Source: Bradyrhizobium erythrophlei (lineage in GTDB: Bacteria; Pseudomonadota; Alphaproteobacteria; Rhizobiales; Xanthobacteraceae). Taken from it: a stretch of DNA of 64,000 nt. The stretch is from contig NZ_LT670849.1 in assembly GCF_900142985.1 (NCBI RefSeq), positions 2,542,001 through 2,606,000 on the forward strand. Reading direction: 5' to 3'. The notes under the pieces were generated by a model. That model was not told the origin of the DNA. It saw nothing but the letters and a program-made list of their open reading frames with translations, and did not search any database. Made by a program: the position numbers and the translations under genes. Position 1 is the stretch's first letter, and each line of letters starts with the position of its first letter. Of the stretch, positions 40,651-59,012 are shown in pieces.

Positions 40651-40677
40651 GACCGGCACCCCGCCAAGTCCTAAACT

Positions 40678-42201
40678 CTAGCGGCGATGCTTTTTCAACT
40701 TTAGCGATGCCTCCGGTGCCCGGGCATTGGCATCGAGCGATGTCGATGCCAATGGCGTCTCACCCTTGGCCTCTTCGTGTCGGACTTCGCGGCGCGGCCA
40801 CGCAAAATCATCGGCGCGGCCGGGCGGCGGCGTCAGCGCTTCACCCTTGAACAGCGTACGTGCGGCGAGCGCATCGACCGCGGCAGGTCGTGTACCCGGC
40901 GCCCCGAGCAATTGATCGGTGGGGACCGAGGAGGCCGCCAAGGGAACGATCGGCCCGGCCAGCGGACGCGGCGTCGGCTGACCCGGCAGTGCATTGGCGT
41001 CGGGCGTCGTAGGCTCGGTTGGCAGTGTGATCGGCGACGAACGCGCGGCGAGCAGGCGCGTGATTTCGCGCTCGACATAATGTGCGAGCTTACGCGCGCC
41101 GGCCTTGGTGAAGTACACGCCGTCAGAAGAACGCAGCTGTCTGGTCTGACCTTCGAAGTCCGGGCCCTTCTGCAGGAAGCGGCCAGCCTCATCAACAAAG
41201 CCATCCCAGACATCAACATAGGTGATGCCGGCCTTGCCGGCCACATCGCGATAGAGCGAATCCAGGAACAGCGTGTCGGCGGTCGCCTTGGGGCCATACA
41301 CCACCGGCAGACCAACCCATAACACCGGCACCCCCTTGGACTTAAGCACGCCGATCATCTCTTCGATCTTTTTTTTGTAGAGCTCGACCCAAGGTCCCTC
41401 GCGAAACTCATAAAGGCCGTTCGGCGAGCGCGCGGCTTTCTCCGGTGCTATGACCGTCGGCGGCACATCACTGTTGTCGGCGGCATCGGCCGGCGATAAT
41501 TCGTAATCCGTAGCCTTGGTTGAGCGATCGGGCTTCGCGGCGGGTCTTGCGCCTGAAGGCTTGCTGTCAGGTTTGGCCTTGGCGTCCTTGTCGCTCTTCT
41601 TGTCCGGCAATTTATTGTCGGATTTATCGGTCGCGGGCTCGCGAATTGCGATACGGTCATCGAGCCCGAGCATGACGACAATGGCGTCCGCTTTTTCGGT
41701 GGCGAGAATGCCTTTGGCGGCGGCGGCCCAATCGGCCGGATCGCCCTTCGGCTGATATTTGATCAGGCCGGAAACTGTTTTGTGTTTGCGGATCACGCCC
41801 ATGTCGGGCTGTTCGGCATAGGCGTCTTCAAGACCATAGGCGAGCCAGTCCGCCATGGCGTCACCAAGCACAAGAATGTGGCGCTCCGGTACAGTATTGC
41901 GTTTGTCGGGCGGCGGCGCCTTGGAAAAATCCCCTTGCACGGGCTGTAACGTTTGCCGGCCATTCCAACGAGGCTGCGGCGCATGCTGCTGGAACGGCGT
42001 AACCGCGTCGTTACCAGGCCAGCCGCCACCGAAGCCGGCGCCACCGCGTTGTGGTTGCGGCCGCTGCTGAAATCCACCGAAATTAAAGAACTGCGCCGAA
42101 GTGGGTCCGACCATGCCGACCACCATCCCCGCCGCAATGGCTAGCGCAATCAACCGGCCACTCTCGGTAAAGATGCACGGCTTCTTTGGCTTGTCCGGCA
42201 T
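40678..42201 (-). CDS. DUF459 (SGNH-like) exported protein
   Basis: 507 residues from ATG 42201. A signal anchor (GRLIALAIAAGMVVGMVGPTSA) and a Gln/Gly/Pro linker precede the SGNH-like DUF459 domain (residues ~108-350): HILVLGDAMADWLAYG, DAIVVMLGLDDR, and SDGVYFTKAGARKLAHYVE. A charged Lys/Asp-rich insert interrupts it, and a long Ala/Pro tail follows. In active SGNH hydrolases the first block is GDS and the last is DGxH; here they read GDA and DGVY, so the nucleophile and histidine appear missing. The protein is probably periplasmic and may bind glycans rather than hydrolyse esters. Confidence 0.85.
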   Translation of the reverse strand: MPDKPKKPCIFTESGRLIALAIAAGMVVGMVGPTSAQFFNFGGFQQRPQPQRGGAGFGGGWPGNDAVTPFQQHAPQPRWNGRQTLQPVQGDFSKAPPPDKRNTVPERHILVLGDAMADWLAYGLEDAYAEQPDMGVIRKHKTVSGLIKYQPKGDPADWAAAAKGILATEKADAIVVMLGLDDRIAIREPATDKSDNKLPDKKSDKDAKAKPDSKPSGARPAAKPDRSTKATDYELSPADAADNSDVPPTVIAPEKAARSPNGLYEFREGPWVELYKKKIEEMIGVLKSKGVPVLWVGLPVVYGPKATADTLFLDSLYRDVAGKAGITYVDVWDGFVDEAGRFLQKGPDFEGQTRQLRSSDGVYFTKAGARKLAHYVEREITRLLAARSSPITLPTEPTTPDANALPGQPTPRPLAGPIVPLAASSVPTDQLLGAPGTRPAAVDALAARTLFKGEALTPPPGRADDFAWPRREVRHEEAKGETPLASTSLDANARAPEASLKLKKHRR

Positions 42202-42320
42202 GCTCTTGGACCGCACAGACGCATAACTCGCCTCGACGAAGACTACCACTAACGCTGTGACGAGTCTCAGGTTACCGTGAAGAGCGTTACCGCCAGTGAG
42301 GGCCAAACGAGCAACAGCCC

Positions 42321-42405
42321 ATGTCCGGTTCGGGCCAAACGCATCGCCCTGACGGCGCCCCGCACACTTCCGGTCTTCCTCTATGAACAGAAATCACGCA
42401 GTGCG
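42321..42405. repeat. Dispersed repeat family R, partial copy
   Basis: ATGTCCGGTTCGGGCCAAACG and CACACTTCCGGTCTTCC, followed by AGAAATCACGCA. It lacks the right part of the unit and lies in the gap before the next gene. Confidence 0.5.
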
Positions 42406-42697
42406 AGGGTGACCTCCAACTTTCTGGCCGACGGACAAAACCGTGCGGAGCATCGTCGCCTGCTTGACGCCAGCGTCGAGACGTCACGACCACACGACTT
42501 CGCGTCCGCCTCAGCGTTCGTCTCGTCGCGCCAACAGCGAAAGTTTTGCATTCTTATTCACGAAAGTCCGCCTCCCGCTTGATCGGTTCCCAAACCCCAG
42601 TGAAATCAAGGATTCTCCTCAATCGTGGCGGTGATTGTCGCTTTTTGGCCCTCAATAGCAGCGTACTCGTAAACCAATAATCAGGAGGCATCACCCA
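42406..42697. other. Intergenic leader
   Basis: About 290 bases with no gene; an AGGAGG (42683-42688) at the end serves the next gene. Confidence 0.4.
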
Positions 42698-43495
42698 ATG
42701 CCGACGAAAGACGGTTTGACTAACGACCATCCTTTGCCTCTCTTTCTCGCCGAACATGCCGAAGAACCTGAGCAGTGGGATATCGGGAGCGCTTGGGATA
42801 GAGCGGTTATCTCGTCGCGAATCCTCAAGACGAGTATTTTGGCTGTAACGGCGACAGCGATCGGTGTCGCGGTTATATCGGTGGGAAATCCAGTCATGCT
42901 TCTTGCGAACGTCAAGGCCTCGCTGTTCGACGCATCGGCGTTGCGTCCTGGCACTGGTCAATCGGCGCCAACAATTCAATCGACCGCCGGCACTCAGGAT
43001 CTACTGCCGACCGCAAGGGACGAGGCGCCAATTAACCCCGGCGCTAACCCTGAGTCGGCGCCGCCATCAGACGGCATCGCAACGGATACGCCAACACGCA
43101 ACGAAATTGCTGCCGCTTTTGAACCTGCCGATCAGAGTCGGGCCGAAGCGGGTCAACCGTCAGCCGATGACTTGTTCAAGCAATTCCAAGCGTGGGCGGC
43201 ACAGCAAGATCAACGGGCACAGGTCAGTTCCGCACAACCCGCGCAAGATGCCTCATCACAGGTTGTGCAAAATGCCCGACAACAGGTCCGACCCATGCAA
43301 GTGCACCGACAGGTCCGTCACGTGCAGAATGCGCGGGCAGAGATCCAGTCGGTGCAAAATCCCCGAAAAGGGGCCCGGCAGGAGCAAAATGTACGAATAC
43401 AAGTCCCGCCCGTACAAGACGCCCGAGTACAGGGTCAGTCTGTACAAAATGCCCAGGCACCGTCGTTCCTGCAAAGCCTCGGTTTGCGCAATTAG
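42698..43495 (+). CDS. Membrane-anchored protein with VQNAR repeats
   Basis: 265 residues, ATG 42698 with AGGAGG 9 bases before. The cytoplasmic N-terminus (WDIGSAWDRAVISSRILK) is followed by one transmembrane helix (about 49-68, AVTATAIGVAVISVGNPVML) and a Pro/Ser-rich linker. A Gln-rich tail follows in which VQNAR/VQNPR/VQDAR recurs at about 10-15 residue spacing, from residue ~190 to 255. The repeats are also visible in the DNA and look like recent tandem expansion. Similar anchors with variable tails occur in bradyrhizobia; function unknown. Confidence 0.7.
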   Translation: MPTKDGLTNDHPLPLFLAEHAEEPEQWDIGSAWDRAVISSRILKTSILAVTATAIGVAVISVGNPVMLLANVKASLFDASALRPGTGQSAPTIQSTAGTQDLLPTARDEAPINPGANPESAPPSDGIATDTPTRNEIAAAFEPADQSRAEAGQPSADDLFKQFQAWAAQQDQRAQVSSAQPAQDASSQVVQNARQQVRPMQVHRQVRHVQNARAEIQSVQNPRKGARQEQNVRIQVPPVQDARVQGQSVQNAQAPSFLQSLGLRN

Positions 43496-44195
43496 ACCTA
43501 GCAGGAAGTGACGCTCTCCAAGCCTGATCAAGCCGTTTCGATTGGCGGTCTTGTTGAGCGATGATATTCTGTATTTGAGGGTTGGTCTAACCCTAGGGCA
43601 TGGACGATCCTTGATGCACGGGGTCGCACCCCAAATGTGCGGTCGAGTAGCCGGCCCATTGTTAGGCCGAGGGGCCGGGGGTCGCTCCCCCGGCTTCCTT
43701 TAGCCGCCTCAGTGGCAACGCCGAAGTACCGCCGAGCGAGAAGGTAGCAAGTTCCGCACCTTCGTTGTCGAGGGGCGCCAGCAGCCCCGCCGACAGATAC
43801 AACTAAATCGCCGGACTCGTGAAGCTCCAAACGGGCGACTTTCTCTCTTCCTCAACGCAAGGGACGAGAACCGCGAGCTCACCACCTGCTTTGGCGAAAA
43901 CCGCGAATTCCCGTTGGCGTCAAACTCACACCTCGGACCGCAGCAGCGCTAGGTCCGCGCATCCCCTAATAGCGGACGGGCGTCGCCGCAACCAAGGCCG
44001 CGTCGTCCAGCACCGCTAGCTACTCACGAACTGCGCGGCGTGATCGAACTGGGTCTAGTCTTTCGGCGCCCTGCACTCCGCTTTCGCGGTTAGGCGCGCC
44101 TGAGCGATGCACACTGTCTAGGCTTTGTTAGTTTTCTTATCAGTTGCCGACACATATCTACCGTCGGCAATTGGAGAGCTTCTGCCGGAACCTTA
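43496..44195. other. Gene-poor region with a hairpin
   Basis: 700 bases. Minus- and plus-strand ORFs here have no RBS and odd composition, so none is called. The only structure seen is the hairpin at 43674-43694. Confidence 0.4.
43674..43701 (+). terminator. Possible intrinsic terminator
   Basis: An 8-bp perfect stem, GCCGGGGG/CCCCCGGC, with loop TCGCT, followed by TTCCTTT. It is about 180 bases after the VQNAR-repeat gene, so it could end that transcript. Confidence 0.45.
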
Positions 44196-44609
44196 TCAAC
44201 TCCGAGCCGACTTCGATTGACGAGCGCGCTTTTGCAGCAAGATCACGCCTTCGGCGATTTCATCGCGCGCCTTGTTGTATGCCTTCATCTCATACTTTGT
44301 CGGCTGCTGGTCGCCCCGATTTTCGATCGGGATTTTCGCATTGAGGTCCAACATCGCGGCGACCATTCGAAGCGCCCCCCGCAAGACGGAATTAATCGGT
44401 TCGTCGATATCGTCTTTGCCGCGCTCAAGCTTCAGCATCCGGATAGCCACACCCTTGGGGTCGGAACTTTCTTTTTCTGCGGCGTCATAAACCGCAACAA
44501 ACTCTTTCATATCTTCGACTAGATCGGATTTTGGCCGTTTGCCGCTTAGAGTATGCAGCATGCTTCCGGCTAGACGACGACGCTGTATCGGGGAACGTTC
44601 TAACCGCAC
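44196..44609 (-). CDS. Hypothetical soluble helical protein
   Basis: 137 residues from a GTG at 44609 (GAGGG upstream); an ATG at 44561 would give 121. It is charged and helical: VEDMKEFVAVYDAAEKESS, GVAIRMLKLERGKDDID, then a repeat-free hydrophobic helix SVLRGALRMVAAMLDL and KARDEIAEGVILLQKRARQ. Lies 75 bases downstream of the tetR stop on the same strand and may be co-transcribed with it. No family recognised. Confidence 0.5.
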   Translation of the reverse strand: MRLERSPIQRRRLAGSMLHTLSGKRPKSDLVEDMKEFVAVYDAAEKESSDPKGVAIRMLKLERGKDDIDEPINSVLRGALRMVAAMLDLNAKIPIENRGDQQPTKYEMKAYNKARDEIAEGVILLQKRARQSKSARS

Positions 44610-44684
44610 GGCGCCCTCGCGTAGTGAACCTGCGTCGCGGAGGACCGACCGACAGCAAGCGACCCTTTTAGGATACAGCTTGGT

Positions 44685-45383
44685 TCATTTGGCGCGAATC
44701 CCACTCAGGAAGAAGTCGACGGCAGCCTTTCGATGTCGCTCTTCGGTCTTTGGATCGGTTGGGATGCCGTACAACGTCAGACGTTTGCCGTGCCCCAGCA
44801 CAAGATTGAGGAACATGTCAGCCGCAAGTTCTGGGTCGTCCACTTTGATATGGCCGCGGGCGGCGGACTGACGCAAAATAGTTGAAACGCTCCGGACCGC
44901 ACGTAGCCAGCCTTCTTCGTTTGCAAGTTTTGCCAACTCAGGAAATTGGACAGCCTGCGCCGAAAGGATCCGCTGCAGCGCGCCCGCGTCAGGCGCCAAC
45001 GTGTATGCAACCATATGTCGGCTAAGCTCATGCAAAGTCGTCTTGATGCTTTTGGGGCTGGTCTCGGTTGCCTGGGCTTCAGCCGCCGCTGATACCGGAG
45101 CGAACCACCTTCGTATCCTGCCTCGCAGAACGGCGGCGAAAAGATCCCGCTTATCGTGGTAGCGAGCATAGACGGTTGGCTTGCTTATGCCTGCCGCCTC
45201 CGCAACCGCATCGATAGATGTGCCGTCAAAGCCTCGCTCCATGAACAGCCTCGTTGCGACGTCGAGCAATCGCACGTCACGCGCCTCAGCCTCTTCCCGG
45301 GTGGGACGGCCGCCACCACCCCGCCGGATCGTCCGCTCGAGAGCTTTAATTCCTGTCTTGGTCAACCAAAATTCCCTTGTCAC
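44685..45383 (-). CDS. TetR/AcrR-family repressor
   Basis: 232 residues. The DNA-binding helix-turn-helix is at about 45-90: VRLLDVATRLFMERGFDGTS, then DAVAEAAGISKPTVYARYHD. A C-terminal ligand-binding domain of the AcrR type follows (LAADMFLNLVLGHGKRLTLYG). A 19-bp near-palindrome lies 22 bases before the start, so it should repress itself. The same operator precedes the RND pump, NYN and patatin genes. In Bradyrhizobium a flavonoid-responsive TetR regulator (FrrA) with palindromic sites controls an RND pump; this protein may be the equivalent or a relative, which needs alignment. Confidence 0.92.
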   Translation of the reverse strand: MTREFWLTKTGIKALERTIRRGGGGRPTREEAEARDVRLLDVATRLFMERGFDGTSIDAVAEAAGISKPTVYARYHDKRDLFAAVLRGRIRRWFAPVSAAAEAQATETSPKSIKTTLHELSRHMVAYTLAPDAGALQRILSAQAVQFPELAKLANEEGWLRAVRSVSTILRQSAARGHIKVDDPELAADMFLNLVLGHGKRLTLYGIPTDPKTEERHRKAAVDFFLSGIRAK

Positions 45384-45405
45384 CCGATTGAAGGTGGGAT
45401 TATAT

Positions 45406-45424
45406 AAACGATACAGTTTGGTTT
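45406..45424. promoter_or_regulatory. TetR operator in front of the repressor gene
   Basis: AAACGATACAGTTTGGTTT. It matches the other three sites at 13 or more positions but its right arm is degenerate (GTTTGGTTT rather than GTATAGTTT). It overlaps or abuts a minus-strand TATAAT (45399-45404). A weaker site at the repressor's own gene fits autoregulation. Confidence 0.7.
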
Positions 45425-45754
45425 TTTAAAACTACCTGCCTGAATGCTCTTCGTAAAGGTGCTCATAGGCAACGGTCAGCGAAAGGGTCCTCGCCTCGGC
45501 ACCGCAACTGAGAGACTGGACCGCCGCATGAACTCTTTGATCGAAGCTTATCAGGGCATTTTTGCGGGGACAAGATTCGCGACCACGGGGTTCGCGATGG
45601 AAACGGCCGGCCTAGGTTGCCCCACCTCGCTAGGCTTGGACGTCGTGGAGCGGCCTGCCTGTAGGATTGTCCCGAATCTCGGGCAGGCCGCTCGTGGATT
45701 GCAACCCTGGTATATGGTGCTCTCGAGGGAGAGCCCGCGGAAGAGATTTTGACC
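45425..45754. other. Intergenic, no gene seen
   Basis: 330 bases upstream of tetR. A plus-strand frame from 45444 has no RBS or recognisable features. CGGGATTGTCC-like text at 45665-45685 forms GCGGCCTGCC/GGCAGGCCGC, a 10-bp inverted repeat with a 20-base loop, role unknown. Confidence 0.35.
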
Positions 45755-45871
45755 ATGCCCAATCGGTCAATTTCCGACCCAGCCCCACTCCACGCGGTGG
45801 TCATTCTCTCTGTGAGCATTGGGGTTGTCGTTTCGGCCCTGGTTCTCCTCGTCCTCGTCATCTTCTTTTGA
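45755..45871 (+). CDS. Possible 38-residue single-pass membrane peptide
   Basis: ATG 45755 opens MPNRSISDPAPLHAVVILSV and continues into a continuous hydrophobic helix of about 25 residues rich in Val, Leu and Ile that ends FF. GGAAGAG is about 10 bases before. It has the look of a small membrane protein of the kind found with efflux pumps, but a random hydrophobic frame is possible. Confidence 0.35.
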   Translation: MPNRSISDPAPLHAVVILSVSIGVVVSALVLLVLVIFF

Positions 45872-46091
45872 TGAACGGTGCACGACGTGATCGAGTCGGT
45901 CGGGTCAGGGATTTCAATATCCGGCAGAAATGCTCTGGCATTCTATCTTCCCGCCCTCTTTCTCCCGGCGCCGCAAGGAGAAGATTTGCGTGTACGGACT
46001 TCGAGCCGGTTCGTTAAATCCGCCGCCGGTCCGGGATCCATGTAACTGGTGGAGGTCGGCGGCTAAGGGCATGGCCAGCACTTGCTCGAGC

Positions 46092-46250
46092 TTAATCGAA
46101 CTGCACGACACCGAGCATCTCGGCATAACAGGCCACGGCAAAAGCCAGCCCCAACAATATCCCGGTCGCGAAAAGCAATCGGCGAAGGGATCTCGCAACT
46201 ACTTCAAGGTTGGGGCTCTCGCCGTCGTCCGCCTTTTCCATAGCTAACAC
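46092..46250 (-). CDS. Small single-pass membrane protein
   Basis: 52 residues from a GTG at 46250, chosen because AGGAGG then sits six bases upstream (the ATG at 46241 would be too far). An acidic N-terminus precedes VARSLRRLLFATGILLGLAF and the rest of one transmembrane helix. It lies between tetR and the NYN gene in the efflux locus. Function unknown; small pump-associated proteins exist in RND systems, but no homology is claimed. Confidence 0.5.
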   Translation of the reverse strand: MLAMEKADDGESPNLEVVARSLRRLLFATGILLGLAFAVACYAEMLGVVQFD

Positions 46251-46427
46251 AGGATGCCTCCTGGCGGTATCGGTACGCACCGACGATCTCCGTTCGGACG
46301 CCTTCGGCCATCCGGCTATTGGGGGCATGCGATGGTTCGGCTCCCGCTGGGCCAACGCGAACGCAATCGAGCTCAGAGCCGAGGCGAGAGAGCATGCACC
46401 ACAGCGACGCGGATAATGCTGAAGGCC

Positions 46428-47078
46428 CTAACGCGACTTTGCGCGTTCAAGTTCGGTTTCCCGCGGCGCATAGCCGCCTCCTGACGATGTCCGCCGCTGA
46501 ACGTGGTGCGTGGTATGTTGATTCGCTTCGCGCGGAACCGGACGCTGGGACGGATCGCGGCCGAGCTTGGATTGCAGTTCCAGTAGATCGGTGAAAACGT
46601 CGGCCTGGCGTCGCAACTCGTCAGCGATCATCGGCGGCTGGCTCGAAATCGTCGAAACCACGGTCACATGGACGCCACGGCGTTGCACTGCTTCGACGAG
46701 CGAGCGAAAGTCTCCGTCCCCGGAGAAGAGCACGATGTGATCGACGTGGGCGGCGAGTTCCATGGCATCGACTGTAAGCTCGATGTCCATGTTGCCCTTG
46801 ACCTTCCGGTTGCCGGTGGCGTCGACAAATTCCTTGGTGGGTTTGGTAACGACGGTAAAGCCGTTGTAATCGAGCCAATCGAGCAGCGGACGAATTGACG
46901 AGAACTCCTGATCTTCAATGACCGCGGTATAGTAAAATGCGCGCACCAGCGTTCCCTGGCACTGGAACTCCTTTAGAAGCCGCTTGTAATCGATGTCAAA
47001 GCCGAGCGCCTTGGCGGTAGCATAAAGATTGGCGCCGTCGATAAAGAGCGCAGTCCTGTTAGCTGAAGAAACTGTCAT
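46428..47078 (-). CDS. NYN-domain (LabA/DUF88-type) putative ribonuclease
   Basis: 216 residues, ATG 47078 with AAGGAGCGGCAA before. The PIN-like NYN domain shows its acidic residues in ALFIDGANLYATAKALG (Asp at residue 14), MDIELTVDAME, and ILFSGDGDFRSLVEAVQRRG (two Asp). Such enzymes may cleave RNA or bind nucleic acid with a magnesium site. The C-terminus is basic and poorly conserved (PREANQHTTHHVQRRTSSGG). A TetR operator and a minus-strand promoter lie about 210 bases upstream, so it belongs to the same regulon as the pump. A 53-bp copy of its 5' part is found at 52409-52461. Confidence 0.9.
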   Translation of the reverse strand: MTVSSANRTALFIDGANLYATAKALGFDIDYKRLLKEFQCQGTLVRAFYYTAVIEDQEFSSIRPLLDWLDYNGFTVVTKPTKEFVDATGNRKVKGNMDIELTVDAMELAAHVDHIVLFSGDGDFRSLVEAVQRRGVHVTVVSTISSQPPMIADELRRQADVFTDLLELQSKLGRDPSQRPVPREANQHTTHHVQRRTSSGGGYAPRETELERAKSR

Positions 47079-47194
47079 TTGCCGCTCCTTCGTTCAATCT
47101 AAGCTAATTTTCTTGACGACGCCGCGCCCACGCAGAAACACCAACGTAACGTATCGTCGCGTATGGGCTTGTTGCCTTCGAACTTCTCGGCGCG

Positions 47195-47365
47195 AAGGTG
47201 ACCATTGACGCCGCACACATGGCATCCAATGGCGTCATTCACTCCTTTTGTGCGCGGACCTGTCGGGCGTTCTCATGAGATATAAACGATACAGTATAGT
47301 TTTCAACTTGCCAAGCGGTGTGCGGGTTTTTTGCGGAGCCGCCTTGGGAGTCACGGATAGCGGCC
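47195..47365. repeat. Duplicated operator segment, copy 1
   Basis: GTCATTCACTCCTTTTGTGC, then TTTTTTGCGGAGCCG and GGATAGC match 53870-54050 in order, with about 75-80% similarity by eye over 170 bases. It includes the operator at 47284. Copy 1 serves the NYN gene; copy 2 lies before the patatin gene. Confidence 0.75.
47284..47314 (-). promoter_or_regulatory. TetR operator and promoter of the NYN gene
   Basis: Operator AAACGATACAGTATAGTTT at 47284-47302. On the minus strand a TTGGCA (47309-47314) and TATCGT (47286-47291) lie 17 bases apart, so the operator covers the -10 and part of the spacer. Repression by blocking polymerase is the simple reading. Confidence 0.75.
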
Positions 47366-47763
47366 CCGCGCGCAAATCTGCGTCGGGCATAACTCTGCAG
47401 ATCGTCGAACTGACGCCAACCTTGCTCACGAATAGCGGCAGGTCGATATCGCGTTCGGCGCGTTCGAGAAGATCCCGGCCGGCTTCCGGTCCGAGGTGCT
47501 ATGGCACAGCCACGTTCACGATGATCTCGGTTCACCGTGGCTGAGGGCCAGCCGTCTGAGCTACGGACCCAAGCGCCCGCCCGCGACCAGGACGCGCAAC
47601 CGCGGGTGGCGGCCGATGATCAGTGATCACGGGTTCGCTCATCTCTCGCATACCGTAAGTGCCGCGGCCGTTATCGAAGAGCGTATTGTCGAATTCCCGA
47701 GCTCAGCCGATGATTTGGTGCGCGCCCAAGGACTGTCTGCGACACAGCGTGGCCTCAGAAGAT
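47366..47763. other. Region between NYN promoter and pump genes
   Basis: About 400 bases just after the RND operon's 3' end. No RBS-supported ORF was found. Stretches such as AAVIEERIVEFPSSADDLVR (+) read like protein but cannot be placed in a family; a decayed gene is possible. Confidence 0.3.
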
Positions 47764-49020
47764 CTATGACTTGCTTTGTCCCAGGCGTACCTTGCTGCCG
47801 TCGGGCAGATCGACGGCTGGATTGAGGATCACCTGATCGCCCCCCTTGACGCCGCTGTTGATCTCGACTTCTTTCCCAAGGTCGCGCACGATCGTCACCT
47901 TGCGCAGATGCACCACACCATTCTCCACCACTCCGACCTGCAGCCCCGCCTCGTTGAAGATAATCGTATCCGCGGACACCTTGAAGCTTGGAGTCTTGCG
48001 CGGAATGTGGAGCTCGATGGTGCAGTAGATCCCGGGGCTGAGAGTTCCGTCGGGATTCGGGATATCGATTTCCGTCAGCAGGGTGCGGGACCCGGGCTGC
48101 AAGGCGTTGGCAATCCGCGTCACCTTGCCTGGAAAGGTGCGATTCGGGATTTCGGGCACGTGCACGACGGCTTCGATGCCCGGCTGCAATCCGAACGCTT
48201 GGTCCTGCGGCACGAAGACCTGGGTTCTGATCACGTTGCCCTGCATGATCGTGAACATGAACGTGCCGCTGGTCGCGTCGGCTTGCACCAGGCTGCCAAT
48301 ATCCACATTGCGCTGGGTAATGACACCCTCGAACGGCGCTACCACGCGCTGATAAATTTTCTGCTGATGCAGGACCTGCACCTGAGCTTCTTCCGCAACT
48401 ACGTTGGCCTGTGCGACGTCGACGGCCGCTTCCCGTGCCTTGAGCGTCTGGACGTCGATGGTCCCTTGCTGAGCGGTCAGCCAGCCTTTGCCGACCAGCG
48501 GGCTATCGCGGTCCCATGTCACCTGCGCAAGCAGCCGGTTGGCTTCCGCCTGCTGCAGTGCCGCCTTGAGCTGTCCCAGCGTGGCCTCGGCCTGCGATAT
48601 CTGGTGATCGAGTTCGGGAGCCACGATCTCGGCCAGCAATTGTCCCTCCACTACCCTGTCGCCAATGTCCACTTCGCGCTTAGCGAGATAGCCGCTCGCG
48701 CGAGCGAACACGTTTGCGGCCGCGAATGCCGACGTGGAGGCGGGCAGACTGACGATTTGGATGCTGCCGCCGGGCTGTACCGACGCCACGCGAACCTCCG
48801 GGACAAGATCGCGGCTTTGCTCCGCGGTGGCGATCACCTGTCGGTGCTGCTCATAGTGGCTCCATGCTCCGAAAGCCAGCGTTGTCACTAGAAGCAGCAC
48901 CACCCCGAGAACAGGCAACAGGCCTGTCCAACGGCCGCGATCCGCGCGGCGCAACGAGGCGCCTGCTTTGTCGTTCGTCTCCAGCGCGCGCTTGAAATTT
49001 AACGGTTCGTTCGAATTCAT
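47764..49020 (-). CDS. RND efflux periplasmic adaptor (membrane fusion protein)
   Basis: 418 residues. An N-terminal transmembrane anchor (residues 31-50, GLLPVLGVVLLLVTTLAFG) precedes a barrel-sandwich hybrid and hairpin (ASGYLAKREVDIGDRVVEGQ, QISQAEATLGQLKAALQQAE with paired coiled coils). A beta-barrel domain follows (VVAPFEGVITQRNVDIGSLV, GIEAVVHVPEIPNRTFPGKV) and then a membrane-proximal domain. This is HlyD/AcrA architecture. It starts inside the pump's last codons (4-base overlap at ATGA), so pump and adaptor are made together. No outer-membrane channel gene is present; the TolC-like partner must be encoded elsewhere. Confidence 0.93.
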   Translation of the reverse strand: MNSNEPLNFKRALETNDKAGASLRRADRGRWTGLLPVLGVVLLLVTTLAFGAWSHYEQHRQVIATAEQSRDLVPEVRVASVQPGGSIQIVSLPASTSAFAAANVFARASGYLAKREVDIGDRVVEGQLLAEIVAPELDHQISQAEATLGQLKAALQQAEANRLLAQVTWDRDSPLVGKGWLTAQQGTIDVQTLKAREAAVDVAQANVVAEEAQVQVLHQQKIYQRVVAPFEGVITQRNVDIGSLVQADATSGTFMFTIMQGNVIRTQVFVPQDQAFGLQPGIEAVVHVPEIPNRTFPGKVTRIANALQPGSRTLLTEIDIPNPDGTLSPGIYCTIELHIPRKTPSFKVSADTIIFNEAGLQVGVVENGVVHLRKVTIVRDLGKEVEINSGVKGGDQVILNPAVDLPDGSKVRLGQSKS

Positions 49021-52000
49021 TCCGGTACCTCGTCAAACACGCCGCGATGTGGTGTGCCGTCGTTTCGTTTGCGAAGTAACGCGAACAGATACGGCACCAG
49101 AAACAGTGTGGTCGGCGTGGCGAACAGCAGGCCACCGACAACCGCCCGTGCCAGGGCCGCATTTTGCTCTTCGCCGGCGCCGCCAATAGCCATCGGAATC
49201 ATGCCGACGATCATGGCAGCCGCGGTCATCAGTACGGGGCGGATCCGCGTGTGCCCGGCCTCGATGGCAGCCTGGAATGCAGTCTTTCCCGCTAGTTGCT
49301 GTTCTCGAGCGAATGTCACCAAAAGAATCGAGTTCGCCGATGCGACTCCCACCGCCATGATCGCGCCCATCAGCGAAGGCACATTCAGGGTGGTGCCAGT
49401 AACGAACAGCATGGTGACGATGCCGCACAGTGTCGCCGGCAAGGCCAGGATGACAACGAACGGATCGCCGAAATTCTGATAGTTCACGACCATCAGCAGA
49501 TAGACAAACACTGCGGCGAACAGCAGGCCGATGCCTAGATCGAGGAATGCGCCGTTCATGCTCTCGATTTGCCCGATAACCTGAATGGTGTTTCCGGGCT
49601 TAAGCTGCTTCTGCAGGTCGGCCACGATATTGCTGATGTCGGTGGAGACGCTGCCGAGATCACGGCCCTGCGTGCTGGCGTACACCTCATAGACCGGCTG
49701 TATGTTGGCTTGGTTGGCGTTGGTCGGGATGTTAGCTCGCTTGAATGTCGCAACGTTACTCAGCAAACCCGGTACCGGGACATCGGTCAGGGATGAGGAT
49801 AGTGAAGTGGAAACCGGCGTATTGCCGAGATCGCTCAGCGAACCGATCCTGTTCTCCGGCGTCTGGACCGCGAGATAATATGGGATTCCCGATTTCGGAT
49901 CGGTCCAGAAATTCGGTGTGACCTGCTCGGATGAGCTCAGGCTGACATTGAGGTTGGTGGCAATGGTGTTCGCATTCAGCCCGAGCTGCGCCGCTCGCGT
50001 GCGGTCGATAGTGACATAGAACGCGGGCGCATCGACTTCCTGCTGCAGATGCGCGTCCACGATTCCCGGTATCGTCGCGATGCGCCGGCGCAACTCCCGC
50101 GCAACCCGCAGATTGTTGGCCCTGTCATAGCCGGCGGTACGCACGTCGATTTGCGCCGGCAGCCCGAAATTGAGGATCTGGGTGACGATGTCGGCCGCCT
50201 GAAAGTAGAATGTATCTTCGGGAAATTTCTCGGGCAGCACCGTTCGCAGCTTGCGGACGTATTCACCGGTTGCCGCGTGCCCCTCCTTCAGCGAGATCAG
50301 AATGAAGCCGTCGTTCACGCCGATGGTCGAGCCATCGGTGAACGCCAGATTGTAGGCCCTCGCCGGCAGCCCGATATTGTCGACCATCAATTCGCGATCG
50401 CTCTCGGGAATGATCTCGCGGATCTTGTTTTCGACCTCCTGGAAATTCCGCTCGGTCGATTCGATCCGGGTACCGGCCGGTGCACGAAGGTGAAGCTGAA
50501 TCTGTCCGCCGTCGATGGCCGGAAAGAAGTCGCGGCCGACCAATGGGAACATCACCCCTCCGAGGACCAGCAGCAGAACCATAGCGGTAGGAATAATGAA
50601 CTTGTTCTTTAGCAATTCCTTGAGCGACCCCGAATAGGCCTGACGCATCGACTCGAAGCGTCGCTCGAACGCTGCATGAAAACGGGCGAATAAGCCCCGC
50701 GGAGTTCCCTCAATGGGACCATGATGTTCATTCTTAAGCAACAGGCCGATGGTGATCGGCGTCAGGGTGCGTGACAGACCGTAAGAGGCCAGCATTGCGA
50801 ACACGACTGCCAATCCCAGTGGCGTGAACAAATATTTTGCCGGACCGTCGAGGAACACCACGGAGGTAAAGACGCAGCTGATAGCAAGCGTCGAAACCAG
50901 CGTCGGCACGGCGATGCCGGCCGCTCCATAGAGCGTCGCTTGCGGCAGTGGTTGCCTTTCTTCCGTAAGCAGGCGGTGAGTGTTCTCGATCGTGACCGTC
51001 GAATCATCGACTAGGATTCCGATCGCAAGGGCAAGTCCGCCGAGCGTCATGGTATTAATGGTATTGCCGAGGAAATATAGCGCGATCAGCGAGCTCAGAA
51101 TCGAAAGCGGGATCGAGATCATGACAATGAGTGTCGATCGCCACGATCCGAGGAACAGCAGGATCATCATTGCCGTCAGCGCGGCCGCGATCGCGCCCTC
51201 GCGTAGCACACCGATCACCGATTCCTTCACGAACACGGACTGATCGAACAATTCATGTATCTGCATGCCGGGAGGTGCAGCGGCTCGCGATACCTGTAAA
51301 GCCTTACGGACCGCGTTGACGACGCTTAAGGTCGAAGCGTTACCGTTCTTGATTATGCTGAGCAGAACCGATCGCCGGCCGTTCTCCCTCACGACGTTTT
51401 GCTGCACCAGCCAGCCGTCGTGAACCTGGCCGACGTCCTTTACGAATACGGTGGCGCCGTTCACGACCTTGACCGGAATATCGTTGAGATCGTCGATGGT
51501 CGTGGGCGTCGCGTTGGTCTGAACCGCATATTGCTTGTTGTCGATTTTTGCGGTGCCGGAGGGAAGCGTTAGATTCTGAGTATTGACCGCGTTCACTACG
51601 TCAAGCGGCGTCAGCCCCTTGGCCAGCAGCTTTGACGGATCGAGATCAACCATGATCTGGCGATATTTTCCGCCCGCAGGAGTCGGAAGCGTGATCCCGG
51701 GTATCGGGGCCAGTTGCTGGCGGATTCGATAGATGCCGTAGTCATAGAGTTGCTGCTCGCTGAGCGTATCGGAACTCAAGCTTATCTGAAGCACCGGGAC
51801 GCTCGACGCATTGAATTGCACCACCGTCGGGGCCTGGATTCCCGGCGGCAGCGCCGAGCGCACACTGTTCGTCGCGGACACAATCTGCGCTATGGCGAGG
51901 TCAAGATTGACGTCTGGCTGGAAGAAAATCTTCTGGACCGAGAGCCCGGCTAAGGACTGAGCCTCGATGTTCTTGATGCCGTTGACGTTCGTGCTGATCG

Positions 52001-52208
52001 TATACTGGCTGTAGGTGGTGATACGCTGGTCTATCTCCGGCGTGCTAAGGCCGGTATAGGTCCAGATCACCGTCACGACAGGAATGTTGATTTCCGGGAA
52101 GATGTCCGTAGGCATTTTCCAGCATGCAACGACGCCCAGAAACATTATCAGCGCCGCCGCCACGTAGTATGTGTGCGGAAAACGTAGAGCGAACCGAACA
52201 ATGCCCAT
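49017..52208 (-). CDS. RND efflux transporter (AcrB/HAE1 type)
   Basis: 1063 residues with two copies of the RND fold. TM1 is HTYYVAAALIMFLGVVACW. The porter domain begins at MPTDIFPEINIPVVTVIWTY. The proton-relay aspartates lie in TM4 (LAIGILVDDSTVTIENTHRL). The second half has TM7-12 (SGYGL... and a late VGVASANSILLVTFARE). The family fits HAE-type multidrug or organic-substrate exporters rather than the metal pumps, as no CusA methionine cluster is seen. It is transcribed first in the operon with the adaptor overlapping. The promoter at 52381-52409 carries a TetR operator. Confidence 0.95.
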   Translation of the reverse strand: MGIVRFALRFPHTYYVAAALIMFLGVVACWKMPTDIFPEINIPVVTVIWTYTGLSTPEIDQRITTYSQYTISTNVNGIKNIEAQSLAGLSVQKIFFQPDVNLDLAIAQIVSATNSVRSALPPGIQAPTVVQFNASSVPVLQISLSSDTLSEQQLYDYGIYRIRQQLAPIPGITLPTPAGGKYRQIMVDLDPSKLLAKGLTPLDVVNAVNTQNLTLPSGTAKIDNKQYAVQTNATPTTIDDLNDIPVKVVNGATVFVKDVGQVHDGWLVQQNVVRENGRRSVLLSIIKNGNASTLSVVNAVRKALQVSRAAAPPGMQIHELFDQSVFVKESVIGVLREGAIAAALTAMMILLFLGSWRSTLIVMISIPLSILSSLIALYFLGNTINTMTLGGLALAIGILVDDSTVTIENTHRLLTEERQPLPQATLYGAAGIAVPTLVSTLAISCVFTSVVFLDGPAKYLFTPLGLAVVFAMLASYGLSRTLTPITIGLLLKNEHHGPIEGTPRGLFARFHAAFERRFESMRQAYSGSLKELLKNKFIIPTAMVLLLVLGGVMFPLVGRDFFPAIDGGQIQLHLRAPAGTRIESTERNFQEVENKIREIIPESDRELMVDNIGLPARAYNLAFTDGSTIGVNDGFILISLKEGHAATGEYVRKLRTVLPEKFPEDTFYFQAADIVTQILNFGLPAQIDVRTAGYDRANNLRVARELRRRIATIPGIVDAHLQQEVDAPAFYVTIDRTRAAQLGLNANTIATNLNVSLSSSEQVTPNFWTDPKSGIPYYLAVQTPENRIGSLSDLGNTPVSTSLSSSLTDVPVPGLLSNVATFKRANIPTNANQANIQPVYEVYASTQGRDLGSVSTDISNIVADLQKQLKPGNTIQVIGQIESMNGAFLDLGIGLLFAAVFVYLLMVVNYQNFGDPFVVILALPATLCGIVTMLFVTGTTLNVPSLMGAIMAVGVASANSILLVTFAREQQLAGKTAFQAAIEAGHTRIRPVLMTAAAMIVGMIPMAIGGAGEEQNAALARAVVGGLLFATPTTLFLVPYLFALLRKRNDGTPHRGVFDEVPE

Positions 52209-52378
52209 AGTCTATCCTTCCGATGGCCGGTCTTCGAAGGCCGGAGGATACCGACGCGGGTCTTGCTCAAATTTACCCGGCGACTTCGCCGCAATTCGTA
52301 GCCGTCTGCTACAGACAATCCGGAGACTCGTCGCGTCCGATCTCACTAACCATCGGAGCAAGGTATGCGCCCGTTTTT

Positions 52379-52409
52379 AAACTATACCGTATCGTTTTTA
52401 CTTTAGCAA
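52379..52409 (-). promoter_or_regulatory. TetR operator and promoter of the RND operon
   Basis: Operator AAACTATACCGTATCGTTT (52379-52397). On the minus strand, TTGCTA (52404-52409), a 17-base spacer and TATAGT (52381-52386) make a good sigma-70-like promoter whose -10 is inside the operator. The -35 borders the NYN gene fragment. Confidence 0.8.
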
Positions 52410-52461
52410 GCCGGCCTTGGCGGTAGAATAAAGTTTGGCGCCGTCGATAAAGAGCGCAGTC
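52409..52461 (-). pseudogene. Fragment of the NYN-domain gene
   Basis: GGCGCCGTCGATAAAGAGCG and flanking bases match 47002-47055 with a few changes. On the minus strand it reads TALFIDGAKLYSTAKAG against TALFIDGANLYATAKALG in the intact gene. Only about 18 codons remain and the frame does not continue. It is the scar of a duplication or recombination with the NYN locus. Confidence 0.8.
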
Positions 52462-52485
52462 GATGCAGCGCTTGTCGTTTTGTCC

Positions 52486-53658
52486 CTAGTCGCGACCGTC
52501 CCGCTCCAGGTCGAAAACCGCGACGCTTTCGTGATTGGCAGGTCGTTTCAGAACATTCGGATGCCGTAGCGTCCGCACCGTGTCTTGGTAACCGGCGCGC
52601 CAATGAGTCTCCATGCTTGAGCGCGAGAATTCGTAGTCTTTAGAGTTTCCCTCGTAGTTCTTGGCCCGATAGATTAAGTGTACCATGTTGTAGACCTTGC
52701 GGCCGGCGATGGAGCCGAGCAGTTTCGCATTGGGTTCGTCCTTCAGATTATCAGGTAGGCTCTCAAGCAAGGCGGCGACGGTGTTGCGTATCCGCTGGGC
52801 ACGCTTGAACTGGTCCGTGTTGGCTCGGGTGCGGCTGGAATATTGGATCTCTTTTTGTCGCGTTTCGACTTCGGCCATGTTGCCAGGAAAATCTCCCCGC
52901 GCACTCCATAGGTCGACCTGGAACGCCAGCGTGTCCTGGCGCGGAGTGCTGTCCAGCACCCATTGCAACGGGGTGTTCGAGATAAGGCCGCCATCCCAAT
53001 AGCGCTCGCCGTCGATTTCGACCGCCGCAAAGGCCGGCGGCAATGCGCCGCTAGCCATCACGTGCTCGGGCCGGATCGTGTGGGTCGTCGAGTCAAAATA
53101 AACGAAATTGCCACTCCGCACGTTGACCGCGCCGACGCTGAACCGCATTTCCCGAGCGTTGATGCGGTCAAAATCGACAAGGCTTTCGAGCGTGCTTCTT
53201 AGCGCGGACGCATCGTAGAAGCTGGTCGCTTCGATCGATCCCGTCGGATGCAGCCAGGGAGACAGAAGTCGCGGCGCGAAAAATCCGGACGCACCGCTCA
53301 ACATGGCTGAATTGGCGCTGATTTGGTTCATGAGTCCACGGACCCAGTCGCCCTTCGCCAAAGGCGTCAGAAAATCCTGCGGCCAGCTCCCAAAGACATC
53401 CGAGGTAACGCGCTCCCAGAACTCTCGTAGCTTTTCCACCCGCCTTTCCGGCGGGTTGCCTGCGATAAGGGCCGAATTGATGGCCCCGATCGAAATACCC
53501 GCTACCCAGTCCGGGTGGATGCCGGATTGCACCAGTGCCTCATATACGCCAGCCTGGTAAGCTCCAAGGGCGCCACCCCCCTGCAGCAGCAACGCGATGC
53601 ACTCGAAGGGCGGGCGGCCCTCAGTGCAATGGTGTTTTTTCTGGTCGGCCGGCAACAT
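52486..53658 (-). CDS. Patatin-like phospholipase
   Basis: 390 residues from ATG 53658 (an in-frame GTG/TTG extension to 53718 is possible but lacks an RBS). The oxyanion hole LLLQGGGALGAYQAG, the nucleophile elbow GISIGA (Ser in GxSxG) and the catalytic Asp in DGGLISNTPL are all present. A C-terminal DUF3734-type domain follows (HLIYRAKNYEGNSKDYEFSR). It hydrolyses acyl esters of phospholipids or stored polymers. It lies behind a TetR operator copy (53975) and next to the pump, so it may be part of a membrane-stress response with the efflux system. Confidence 0.92.
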   Translation of the reverse strand: MLPADQKKHHCTEGRPPFECIALLLQGGGALGAYQAGVYEALVQSGIHPDWVAGISIGAINSALIAGNPPERRVEKLREFWERVTSDVFGSWPQDFLTPLAKGDWVRGLMNQISANSAMLSGASGFFAPRLLSPWLHPTGSIEATSFYDASALRSTLESLVDFDRINAREMRFSVGAVNVRSGNFVYFDSTTHTIRPEHVMASGALPPAFAAVEIDGERYWDGGLISNTPLQWVLDSTPRQDTLAFQVDLWSARGDFPGNMAEVETRQKEIQYSSRTRANTDQFKRAQRIRNTVAALLESLPDNLKDEPNAKLLGSIAGRKVYNMVHLIYRAKNYEGNSKDYEFSRSSMETHWRAGYQDTVRTLRHPNVLKRPANHESVAVFDLERDGRD

Positions 53659-53869
53659 GATTTTAAGGCTCCTCCAAGGTGGCCTTAGGTTCTCCGAGAT
53701 CCACAGCAGGCTCACCATGGCCTCGACACCGCCGGCGAATAGGTCGTCAAGCGGTCGGAGACTAATCGCTAAAGAATCTGGCGGATCCCGGTGTCAGGGG
53801 CCTTCTGAATCGCGTCAAGGAGCAACTCGTGCCGTTGACGACATCAATCTGGGCTGACGGATCATTTCC

Positions 53870-54050
53870 GGGCGCGAAGGTGACTACCTCACGCCGCATA
53901 CGTGGCATCCCGCGACGTCATTCACTCCTTTTGTGCGCGGCCGCACTTGTCGGCATCATGCCCGCGTGCTATGTAAACGATACAGTATAGTTTCCATCGT
54001 GCCAAGCCCGGCAAGCGAATTTTTTGCGGAGCCGGCTTGAGAGGCATGGA
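53870..54050. repeat. Duplicated operator segment, copy 2
   Basis: Same order of blocks as 47195-47365: GCGCGAAGGTGAC, GGCATCC, GTCATTCACTCCTTTTGTGC, the operator, TGCCAAGC and TTTTTTGCGGAGCCGGCTTG. The right end stops before the P450 gene. Confidence 0.75.
53975..54005 (-). promoter_or_regulatory. TetR operator and promoter before the patatin gene
   Basis: Operator AAACGATACAGTATAGTTT at 53975-53993, identical to that at 47284. A minus-strand TTGGCA (54000-54005) and TATCGT (53977-53982) are again 17 bases apart. It is 317 bases before the patatin start. It also lies 190 bases before the divergent P450 gene, which may share control. Confidence 0.7.
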
Positions 54051-54181
54051 TAGCCGAGGAACCCAGTTCTCACCGAAATCAGGAGTCACGGGAGGCCGCC
54101 TTCTTTTAGTGGTTTCCGACTTTGCGGAAACGCCGCTCGGATAACCGGCCTTATTCGTGAGGATGCAGGAACATCTCCCCA

Positions 54182-55375
54182 GTGCACCACCCAGACCGTC
54201 AAGATGATCAAAAGACTTCGTTCTTGAGGAGTGAGAGGAACCAAACTCCGTTTGAACGAATATCCAACGAAGTGGTCAGGATTCGCGGCATCCAACTTGC
54301 GCGCCAGATCCTTCGGAGCGACGGTCTCCGGCAAGCTGGATTCATGGCGGAGATTGCAAATCGATTCACAAAGCGTAGCCGTGCGCCCGTCCTCTTTCAG
54401 GAGGGGGACGCTCATCGGAAACAAAGGAGTGCTACGGCGCGCTTCTTTGCTCCCAAGGTCGTCGCTACTCGCTACCGTCAACTTATGCTGGAGCAGAGCA
54501 AGCGATTGATGAAGGACTTGCGTTCGACCGGCCGCGCTCAACTGGATTCGCTGGGCCTGGAGCTGTCTGTCGCCGTGACCGCCGAGATAGTTGGGCTGAC
54601 TGATCGGTGCAGCCCTGGTTTGGCAAACCGGTTAAGTAGCTTCTGCAACGAAGAGCAGCAGAGTTCCGGAAGGCTGGCGACCTTCACAAGAATGGCCTTT
54701 GCCCTTTATCGGATGGTGCGGTTTTTCTTATGCGACGTGATGCCGGCGATAAGGTCGCGCAGGATTGTTCGGCGGCAAGACATCATTTCGCATCTGATCG
54801 ATCAAGGCTACAGCAACCGGGAAATTCTTATCGAGTGCATAACCTACGGCGCAGCGGGCGTCGCGACAACCCGCGAACTGATCGTTGTGGCTGCCTGGCA
54901 TCTCTTTGACCGCATGGATCTGCGGATGCGGTTTCTGAATGGTGACGAAATCGACCGAATCGCAATCCTTGAGGAGGTGATTAGACTTGAACCTGTCGTT
55001 GGCCTGCTTTATCGGCGCGCCGAACAGAACCTGCTTCTCGACAACAACGGACGAGCGGAAAGTATATCGGCCGGCACGTTGCTCGCGATAGACATTCGAG
55101 CCGTCAACGTCGATCCCGCGGCCGCGGGAGTCTGTCCTTACAGACTCGATCCGGACCGACGGATTGAGGATCATAGATTTCCCGGAAGCCTGATGAGTTT
55201 TGGTGATGGTCCGCATCGTTGTCCCGGTGCAGCGGTCGCATTGCTAGAAAGCGCAATTTTCCTCAACCACCTTTTTAGGGTTCCTGGAATTCGGCTGACG
55301 CACACGCCTACGATGACGTCGAATCCACTAGTCGAAAGCTACGAACTCCGGGGTGCCATCGTCGAGTGCAACTAG
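54182..55375 (+). CDS. Cytochrome P450
   Basis: 397 residues. The heme loop SFGDGPHRCPGAAVALLE has Cys 347; the ExxR is in LEEVIRLEP; the I-helix reads YGAAGVATTRELIV, with the AGxxTTRE oxygen-activation pattern. This is a normal bacterial soluble P450. The start is a GTG at 54182 with a modest AGGA upstream, so the N-terminus is not certain. No ferredoxin or reductase gene is adjacent. Divergent from the patatin gene across the duplicated operator region. Unlike the P450 at 590, its oxygen-binding helix is canonical. Confidence 0.9.
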   Translation: MHHPDRQDDQKTSFLRSERNQTPFERISNEVVRIRGIQLARQILRSDGLRQAGFMAEIANRFTKRSRAPVLFQEGDAHRKQRSATARFFAPKVVATRYRQLMLEQSKRLMKDLRSTGRAQLDSLGLELSVAVTAEIVGLTDRCSPGLANRLSSFCNEEQQSSGRLATFTRMAFALYRMVRFFLCDVMPAIRSRRIVRRQDIISHLIDQGYSNREILIECITYGAAGVATTRELIVVAAWHLFDRMDLRMRFLNGDEIDRIAILEEVIRLEPVVGLLYRRAEQNLLLDNNGRAESISAGTLLAIDIRAVNVDPAAAGVCPYRLDPDRRIEDHRFPGSLMSFGDGPHRCPGAAVALLESAIFLNHLFRVPGIRLTHTPTMTSNPLVESYELRGAIVECN

Positions 55376-55384
55376 CGCCTTCAA

Positions 55385-55510
55385 TCAGGCTTTACCGGCT
55401 CGCTTCTGGTTGATCAGGTCAATCAAGGCAGTCTCATAGTGGTCCTCGAACTTCTCAGGCCCGAACGACCCAGACTCCTGGTTGACGATATGCTTGGCAA
55501 GATCGAGCAT
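55385..55510 (-). pseudogene. ku: C-terminal remnant of a Ku DNA-repair gene
   Basis: Reading from ATG 55510 the 41 codons begin MLDLAKHIVNQESGSF and include FEDHYETALIDLINQKRAGK, which is the C-terminal region of bacterial Ku (the end-binding protein of non-homologous end joining). The rest of Ku, about 240 residues, is missing. The sequence upstream (to 55650) does not continue the family. No LigD gene is in the window. A vestige rather than a functional gene. Confidence 0.75.
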
Positions 55511-55734
55511 ACTCCCCTCCCAAAGGTGACGCCCCAACACCGACTGGATCACCTCTGTCCCGCCGTGGCACCTCGTTAAAGGACGGTTGCAGCTGCATTT
55601 GGCCGGCTATATTAGGTCTCGCGGATGCTTATAAGAATGCCGTAAATATAGCGGAGCGGGACCGGTCCCGCGCGGCGCGGCCCTTGCTGCCGAAGAAGAG
55701 CGCGTTTTTCCGACCCATTCTTCGATTGGCTGAC

Positions 55735-56847
55735 TCAGGTTAACTTGGTGCGACGCTCGGTTTCGGCAGCTTCCTCAACTGCCGCGATCACCCGATGCAG
55801 CGCGACCGCGTCGTCGAAGCTTGGCGCCGTGTGGGTGCCTTCCTGCAGGTCCTTGGCCATTCTGGCGTAGTTGCGGGCGATGTTCCCGGGGATCACCTCC
55901 ACAGGGAAGCCAGTACGGTAGGACGCAGGAACCTCCAGCGTCTGGAACGCCTTCTGGTCGCCCCGCGCACCCTTGAGCGAGAGCGGCACGAGCTGCGCGT
56001 GGCCGAAGGGGCCGGATACCCGGATATCTCCCTTCGTGCCGTTGATCTCCCAGAGGAGGCCGTCGCCGTCCCGCGCCATCCCGCCGCGATAGTGAATGGA
56101 GACGGGTGCGCCGTTGGTCAATACTCCGCTCACCAGTACCTGGTCAGGAGCGGACACAGGCAACGTCTCGCCGGTATCGGCGACAAGCGCCGTGGTACGC
56201 CTAGTGGAGAGCACCGAAGATACATCTGCGAACTTGCCCAGCACATCGGTAAGCGCAGCGAGCGTATGTCCCACCGGAATCGTCAGCATGGTGGCGCCAC
56301 CAGCCTTGTCGAGCAGATAGGCATTGTCTTTCTTCTGAGGGATGACCCCGCCCCAGCCACCGCCTCGCGCGATTAGTGTGGTCGACAGCACCTCGCCGAC
56401 GAAGCCGTCCGCGATGAGCTTCTTCAAATACTCAATTTCCGGGGCGACACGCGCTTGCGTTCCGATCACGCCCAACACGCCCTTGGCCCGGGCGACCGCG
56501 GCGAGTTTCTCGGCTTCCGCCAGGCCGTTGCCCAGAGGCCATTCGCAATAGACGTGTTTGCCCGCTTCGATCGCCGCCTTAACGATCTCCAGATGATGGG
56601 TCACCTTGACCGTGACGGTCACGATGTCGATCTCGGGTGCCGAAACCATCTCCGCAACATTTGCGTATGCCTTCGGCAGACCCATAGCGGCGGCCGCCGC
56701 TTGGGAACTTTCCAGGCTGGTGTTAGCGACGCCGGCGATCTCGAAGCTCTCAGGCAGCGCGCGCAGCGCAGGGACATGGCCTCGGGCTGCCCAGCTCCTG
56801 CCAGGTTGCAACCCGACGATGCCCACCTTGAAGCGTTGTTCAGTCAT
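55735..56847 (-). CDS. Gfo/Idh/MocA-family oxidoreductase
   Basis: 370 residues. The N-terminal NAD(P)-binding Rossmann fold is KVGIVGLQPGRSWAARGH, with the turn EIAGVANTSLES and EWPLGNGLAEA in the place of the CEKP motif. The C-terminal domain binds a sugar or other cyclic substrate (LISVHYRGG, HTAPSFDDAVALHRVI). The usual catalytic EKP lysine is replaced here by EWP, which is seen in some subfamilies and may mean a different substrate. Starts ATG 56847 with GGAGA. It lies next to an aldo/keto reductase gene on the same strand (124-base gap), and the two could form a redox pathway. Confidence 0.9.
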   Translation of the reverse strand: MTEQRFKVGIVGLQPGRSWAARGHVPALRALPESFEIAGVANTSLESSQAAAAAMGLPKAYANVAEMVSAPEIDIVTVTVKVTHHLEIVKAAIEAGKHVYCEWPLGNGLAEAEKLAAVARAKGVLGVIGTQARVAPEIEYLKKLIADGFVGEVLSTTLIARGGGWGGVIPQKKDNAYLLDKAGGATMLTIPVGHTLAALTDVLGKFADVSSVLSTRRTTALVADTGETLPVSAPDQVLVSGVLTNGAPVSIHYRGGMARDGDGLLWEINGTKGDIRVSGPFGHAQLVPLSLKGARGDQKAFQTLEVPASYRTGFPVEVIPGNIARNYARMAKDLQEGTHTAPSFDDAVALHRVIAAVEEAAETERRTKLT

Positions 56848-56970
56848 AATGTTCGGTTCTCCATCGGCCTGTCTCGGCCGGGCCGTAGTTTGTGCTCAAG
56901 CCCATACAAGCCGGAGGCCGATGGTTGAGACCACAAGGGCGCTCCGGCCGATTCACGCGTCTTCATCTGG

Positions 56971-59012
<2,042 letters not shown>

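Follow-up and report, generated by a model that had tools for sequence, protein, structure and literature searches.

In Bradyrhizobium diazoefficiens USDA110, genistein induces the BjG30 locus (bll7017-bll7033) as early as 5 min, and the authors of that observation suspected a TetR regulator (PMC4070704). In the same strain, blr4684 is genistein-responsive without NodW according to a review (PMC5793154), and another TetR protein, FrrA, is encoded at 4.77 Mb next to FreCAB (bll4319-blr4322). Here I describe a 19-bp palindrome, AAACKATACNGTATMGTTT, in a stretch of 64,000 nucleotides of the Bradyrhizobium erythrophlei genome (the window), where it stands ahead of a putative TetR repressor gene (tetR1), an NYN-domain gene, an RND efflux pump operon and a patatin gene, and I compare this arrangement with the systems of USDA110. 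Palindromes with the inner bases of AAACKATACNGTATMGTTT are called KATAC-type, the FrrA-type counterpart being TGAAC. Sequence comparison over many genomes makes it well supported, by genus-wide recurrence, that one operator family links tetR genes to pumps and patatins. A KATAC-type operator is not described for BjG30 in the literature searched, which was available in part and did not cover Wenzel et al. 2012 and Wei et al. 2008.

The operators of the window and of the genome

The four sites in the window, all on the minus strand, are its sole matches to the palindrome at up to three mismatches, where 100 dinucleotide shuffles gave a mean of 0.01. The site ahead of tetR1 (45406..45424) has two mismatches; those located 206 bp ahead of the NYN gene (47284..47302), 171 bp ahead of the pump operon (52379..52397) and ahead of the patatin gene (53975..53993) have none. 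The latter three overlie the -10 of sigma-70-like promoters on the minus strand with 17-bp spacing, namely TTGGCA-17-TATCGT at the NYN and patatin genes and TTGCTA-17-TATAGT at the pump, each with 9 of 12 consensus letters. The tetR1 site is without this geometry and is closely followed, on its downstream side, by a TATAAT that has a weak -35 at a spacing of 18 or 19 bp. A sequence-only reading that preceded this analysis had proposed the four sites, the promoters overlapping three of them and the identities of the genes behind them, and on all of these points it was right.

The genes are likewise on the minus strand. TetR1 (44685..45383), a putative repressor with TetR_N and TetR_C_7 (AefR-like) domains, fits the TetR/AefR-like family with 60.6 bits for the TetR_N helix-turn-helix and 75.8 bits for the AefR-like C-terminal domain PF14246, both over the cut-offs. 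Its reading frame opens with GTG at 45383, but TTG at 45365 is the more likely start, judged from a ribosome-site-like stretch, AAGGGA, and from the paralogue. The NYN-domain gene (46428..47078), coding for a putative RNase, has the motifs DGANL, DIELTVD and SGDGDF and lies between tetR1 and the pump, which share a strand. The pump operon is led by the permease of the AcrB family (49017..52208), followed by the periplasmic adaptor with an HlyD_D23 domain (47764..49020), both assigned by domain matches. The patatin-like phospholipase (52486..53718; domains Patatin and DUF3734, motifs GGGALG, GISIG and DGG) may start at 53658 instead of 53718, as far as the sequence tells. A cytochrome P450 gene (54182-55375) is divergent from the patatin gene, and a 73% relative of it lies about 3 kb from a patatin gene in another genome, G245. 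The translation of an open reading frame at 42698-43495 shows VQNAR-like units repeated in its C-terminal part.

Over the whole 7.5-Mb genome, eight sites were found at up to two mismatches against none for a backward-pattern control, and ten against one at up to three mismatches, the two added sites being weak. Four good sites lie outside the window. Three are around tetR2: about 40 bp ahead of tetR2 itself, ahead of the adjoining marR-emrA-emrB-nodT operon, and behind that operon, about 330 bp ahead of an isochorismatase-like gene. The fourth is located between tetR3 and emrAB. TetR2 is 85-86% identical to TetR1, their DNA-binding domains agree at all but two of the 61 positions compared, and two sites of the tetR2 locus are letter for letter equal to the tetR1 site. 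The regulon is probably larger than four sites, with TetR1 and TetR2 as two interchangeable repressors. A search for further members, as suggested by the sequence-only reading, yielded these additional sites; its idea of one TetR protein in sole control is not supported, as two TetRs with near-identical DNA-binding domains share the sites of the genome. The loose form AAACNNNACNGTNNNGTTT, also searched genome-wide, gave seven sites at zero mismatches, none of them outside the set described above; a wider regulon based on it was rejected, as at two mismatches its 123 matches compare with 154 in the backward control. Between a third tetR and emrAB in locus L012, a TGAAC-like palindrome (L012:8858) and a KATAC-type palindrome (L012:8907) are 49 bp apart, both types of operator thus occurring in a single promoter region.

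Recurrence across the genus and the family

In a scan of the genus at up to two mismatches, 84 of 98 genomes contain sites, with 207 sites in total against 9 control matches. A scan of the family at up to one mismatch found sites in 34 of 296 genomes and control matches in none; the sites are present in 24 of the 27 genomes of the genus and in 10 of the 269 from other genera. All ten site clusters outside the genus contain a TetR gene, which is directly beside the site in eight; in the other two (L156 and L160) gene and site are 4-6 kb apart, and the gene is adjoined by another, weaker site. For gene content, I hand-picked 20 genus loci from the site list, to which the following counts are confined: the fetched stretches contain a TetR gene in 20 of 20 and a patatin gene in 15 of 20, weak patatin fragments in L067 being left out of the latter count. 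Relatives of the tetR1 class keep the site ahead of tetR, as seen in seven loci.

The patatins found at the sites are of two kinds, those with DUF3734, as in the window and in BjG30, and those without a DUF3734 match (one member scanned). The latter, the blr4684-type patatins, have a site ahead in the 11 such loci listed. The ten BjG30-type loci with a patatin (L058, L059, L060, L063, L090, L131-L134 and L156, of which L131-L134 were found through patatin similarity) are less uniform, as discussed below. All 13 blr4684-type loci mapped in the genus (L096, L054-L073) have a PepSY-domain gene behind the operator, next to tetR, and BjG30 has a PepSY gene as well (L090:14404-15552).

Promoter geometry was scored as a -35 with at least four of six letters at offset -11 or -12 and a -10 with at least four of six letters inside the operator; as the sites are mostly orthologous, the resulting counts are not independent. 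This geometry, with a spacing of 16-17 bp between -35 and -10, is shared by 13 of the 15 sites that precede PepSY genes, including all 13 of the blr4684-type loci, the misses being L067 and L160. A rule relating the recognition helix to the operator (KPT[VI]Y to KATAC, KATLY to TGAAC) fits the nearest TetR in most loci, but was given up as four TetRs from outside the genus break it.

Proposed control, local history and rival explanations

I propose, with a probability of roughly two in three, that TetR1, and in all likelihood the paralogous TetR2 as well, binds AAACKATACNGTATMGTTT and thereby represses the pump, the patatin gene and further targets until an aromatic inducer releases it. With the palindrome overlying the -10 at three window sites and abutting one at tetR1, a bound dimer would block RNA polymerase. 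A small aromatic molecule, for which analogy with USDA110 makes a flavonoid or some other plant phenolic the likeliest candidate, would free the operator, and its release would derepress the repressor, the RND pump, the patatin lipase and, locally, the NYN RNase, as well as, at the locus of tetR2, emrAB-nodT and the isochorismatase-like hydrolase. The old core of the system would be the autoregulatory tetR site, with patatins and pumps as recurrent yet changing partners, and the RND pump and NYN genes may have been brought under the operator in this lineage through rearrangement and promoter duplication. The envelope stress suggested by the sequence-only reading is not indicated by any result, and plant flavonoids or phenolics are a better guess.

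Traces of such a history are found in the window. The promoter segments of the NYN gene (47189..47361) and the patatin gene (53871..54054), both on the minus strand, are 77.7% identical over 184 aligned positions, the first being a copy of the second or both having a common ancestor. As the sites at 47284 and 53975 lie inside this duplicated DNA, they do not count as two independent occurrences. Both duplicated leaders share the stretch AAAAGGAGTGAATGAC; a short open reading frame behind the stretch AAAAGGAG in these leaders is, by eye, conserved for about 10 codons and no further. Directly upstream of the pump promoter lie about 54 bases left over from the 5' end of a second NYN gene (52408..52461, minus strand, 91% identical to 46999-47055), which breaks off at this promoter. 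The genome contains five NYN copies, so that NYN is not a defining member of the regulon, and only one of the eight genomic sites precedes an NYN gene; control of the NYN gene looks like a by-product of the local duplication. Relatives of the pump occur in 194 of 265 genus genomes (E <=1e-200, including distant ones down to 45% identity). For 29 close relatives, 21 of them at 83-86% identity (likely orthologues) and eight at 78-79%, DNA similarity to the window stops near the coding ends, within 20 bp of the start codon. The gene order of G245 runs P450, patatin, NYN, site, tetR and marR-emrAB, with no pump separating patatin and NYN. Most simply, the pump would have entered between the patatin and NYN genes, with both pump and NYN gaining the operator in this lineage. 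A locus of G245, L129, has its tetR1-class gene matching in two separate pieces and an NYN copy with one internal stop, and both genes appear broken. The joint control of efflux, RNase and phospholipase that the sequence-only reading predicted is thus supported in as far as the operator family of tetR, pump and patatin recurs genus-wide, but not for the NYN gene, apparently a product of duplication, nor beyond this genome for the pump site. The case illustrates the growth of a regulon through promoter copying.

Several observations weigh against the proposed control. In the 1.5-kb flanks of the 29 close pump relatives no operator was found ahead of the pump at up to five mismatches, the sole exception among these flanks being a match in L188 that has five mismatches and lies about 1.3 kb upstream, so that a single site in a single genome is the basis for control of the pump; a second pump copy in the same genome (78%) has none of the genome's listed sites nearby. 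The sites at patatins are patchy. Of the ten BjG30-type loci, five (L058, L059, L063, L090 and L156) have a site with up to three mismatches directly ahead of the patatin gene, the other five having a weaker site (two to three mismatches) further up, ahead of a PepSY gene that precedes the patatin, and neither of the two nearest relatives of the window patatin, both from G245 (L129 and L130), has a site ahead of it. The steadiest element is therefore the tetR site and not the patatin site. The promoter geometry of the window is found in four of nine site orientations in this genome, which are the three window sites and the isochorismatase site, and at none of the 11 sites before blr4684-type patatins. 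Since TetRs from outside the genus (L157, L158, L160 and L161) stand at KATAC-type sites with other recognition helices, the site alone does not identify its repressor. With regard to the inducer, the TetR of BjG30 shares no more than about 29% identity with TetR1, so that the inducer need not be shared, and NodA has no match in this genome against one in USDA110 in the same search, so that a role in legume signalling is not implied. Finally, neither site type was found in 18 kb around a TetR gene beside an emrAB-like pair at 7.30 Mb of USDA110 (probably blr6623, in the bll6621-6622 region), and the operator therefore leaves some of the NodW-independent genistein genes unexplained.

Alternatively, only the tetR1 site and perhaps the patatin site may work, the NYN and RND sites being leftovers of rearrangement with little regulatory effect. 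This would agree with the NYN site lying in DNA that duplicates the patatin promoter at 78% identity, with the five NYN copies and the single genomic site ahead of one, and with the site-free pump relatives, whose DNA similarity ends near the coding ends. However, I consider it unlikely, as the NYN and RND sites have no mismatches and kept their -35, 17-bp spacer and -10 although the promoter copies drifted to 78% identity, pointing to selection for the site. More doubtful still is a scheme in which TetR1 merely autoregulates and the window sites are bound by TetR2, given its near-identical DNA-binding domain, or by TetR3, which adjoins its own site of the same operator family: tetR1 has three more sites within 10 kb, and the seven tetR1-class loci retain the site ahead of tetR. 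This I regard as improbable.

Most improbable is that the window represents the FrrA regulon of this organism. The FrrA protein of USDA110 equals the sequence of PDB 6g87/6g8g over residues 18-229, entries which I take to be the published FrrA structures. FrrA and TetR1 both consist of TetR_N and TetR_C_7, both are encoded near an RND pump, and the 19-bp palindromes of the FrrA promoter are of the same general form as those of the window, fitting a loose AAAC-NNN-ACNGT-NNN-GTTT with one to two mismatches. However, FrrA is 29-31% identical to TetR1 and occupies a separate branch in the tree, and the palindromes read from the frrA-freC gap (AAACTGAACNGTTCAGTTT-like) carry TGAAC inside, where the window sites carry KATAC. 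On these three differences FrrA orthology of TetR1 was rejected, and the view of the sequence-only reading that FrrA is the closest parallel is not supported. Moreover, frrA is divergent from freCAB whereas no pump is divergent from tetR1 in the window, the window adaptor is 25% identical to FreA, and there is no patatin among the open reading frames listed around FrrA-FreCAB. A TGAAC-like site at 6133814 of G000 has no FreCAB or FrrA match within 18 kb.

BjG30, blr4684 and related loci

For the comparison with USDA110, genome G114 was taken as this strain on the basis of the blr7027 primer of PMC4070704, which matches at 7743661, inside the published BjG30 coordinates. One operator, at 7738379, immediately precedes the tetR gene blr7023 and is separated by about 1 kb from the beginning of the pump operon; another, at 7742610, precedes a gene with Patatin and DUF3734 domains (blr7027 by the primer match), with two weaker matches of three mismatches between them. 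Like the window, BjG30 combines a TetR, an RND pump and a patatin, with KATAC/TATAC-type operators at tetR and patatin, and its patatin is 66% identical to that of the window. Unlike the window, it has the distant TetR blr7023 mentioned above, a three-gene pump from another RND group (about 23% identity in BjG30-type loci), and adc and bdh following the patatin; Adc and Bdh have no match at 40001-58000 of the window.

At 5.19 Mb of USDA110 (about 5187499-5190504), sites flank a patatin-tetR pair with a PepSY gene behind. The patatin is probably blr4684; this number, like those of its tetR neighbour and of blr6623, was deduced from the strand, the domain and a map position obtained by interpolation. 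The TetR is 46-48% identical to TetR1, its nearest relative in USDA110 and on an adjacent tree branch, and the operator precedes both the patatin and the PepSY gene, the latter site showing the promoter geometry of the window. Unlike in the window, the patatin belongs to another subfamily without a DUF3734 match and has another promoter geometry, and no pump was seen in the locus. In the stretch 2.655-2.695 Mb, aimed at blr2422-blr2423, no match to the pump references was found, but those genes were probably missed. Loci of Afipia and of metagenome-assembled genomes (L015-L017) contain a site, a tetR1-class gene (59-71%), a patatin and marR-emrAB in one cluster; they differ from the window in their Emr-type pump, a blr4684-like patatin and the absence of an NYN match.

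These observations provide a concrete candidate operator for genistein-responsive genes of a soybean symbiont, in BjG30 and probably in blr4684, for which the literature searched, as far as available, names no regulator site, and they bring to light a recurring pairing of efflux and patatin lipase. Whether the KATAC-type palindrome is a missing cis-element of the NodW-independent genistein response, with AefR-like repressors coupling pumps and patatins genus-wide, also where nodA is not detectable, and with new genes recruited by copying of promoter and operator, I consider evenly balanced. The regulon is not of a new kind, as the sequence-only reading had it, since BjG30 and probably blr4684 carry the same operator with patatins, BjG30 together with a pump. 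The combination of TetR, efflux and patatin in the window is a lineage-specific version of this module, which is probably flavonoid- or phenolic-responsive.

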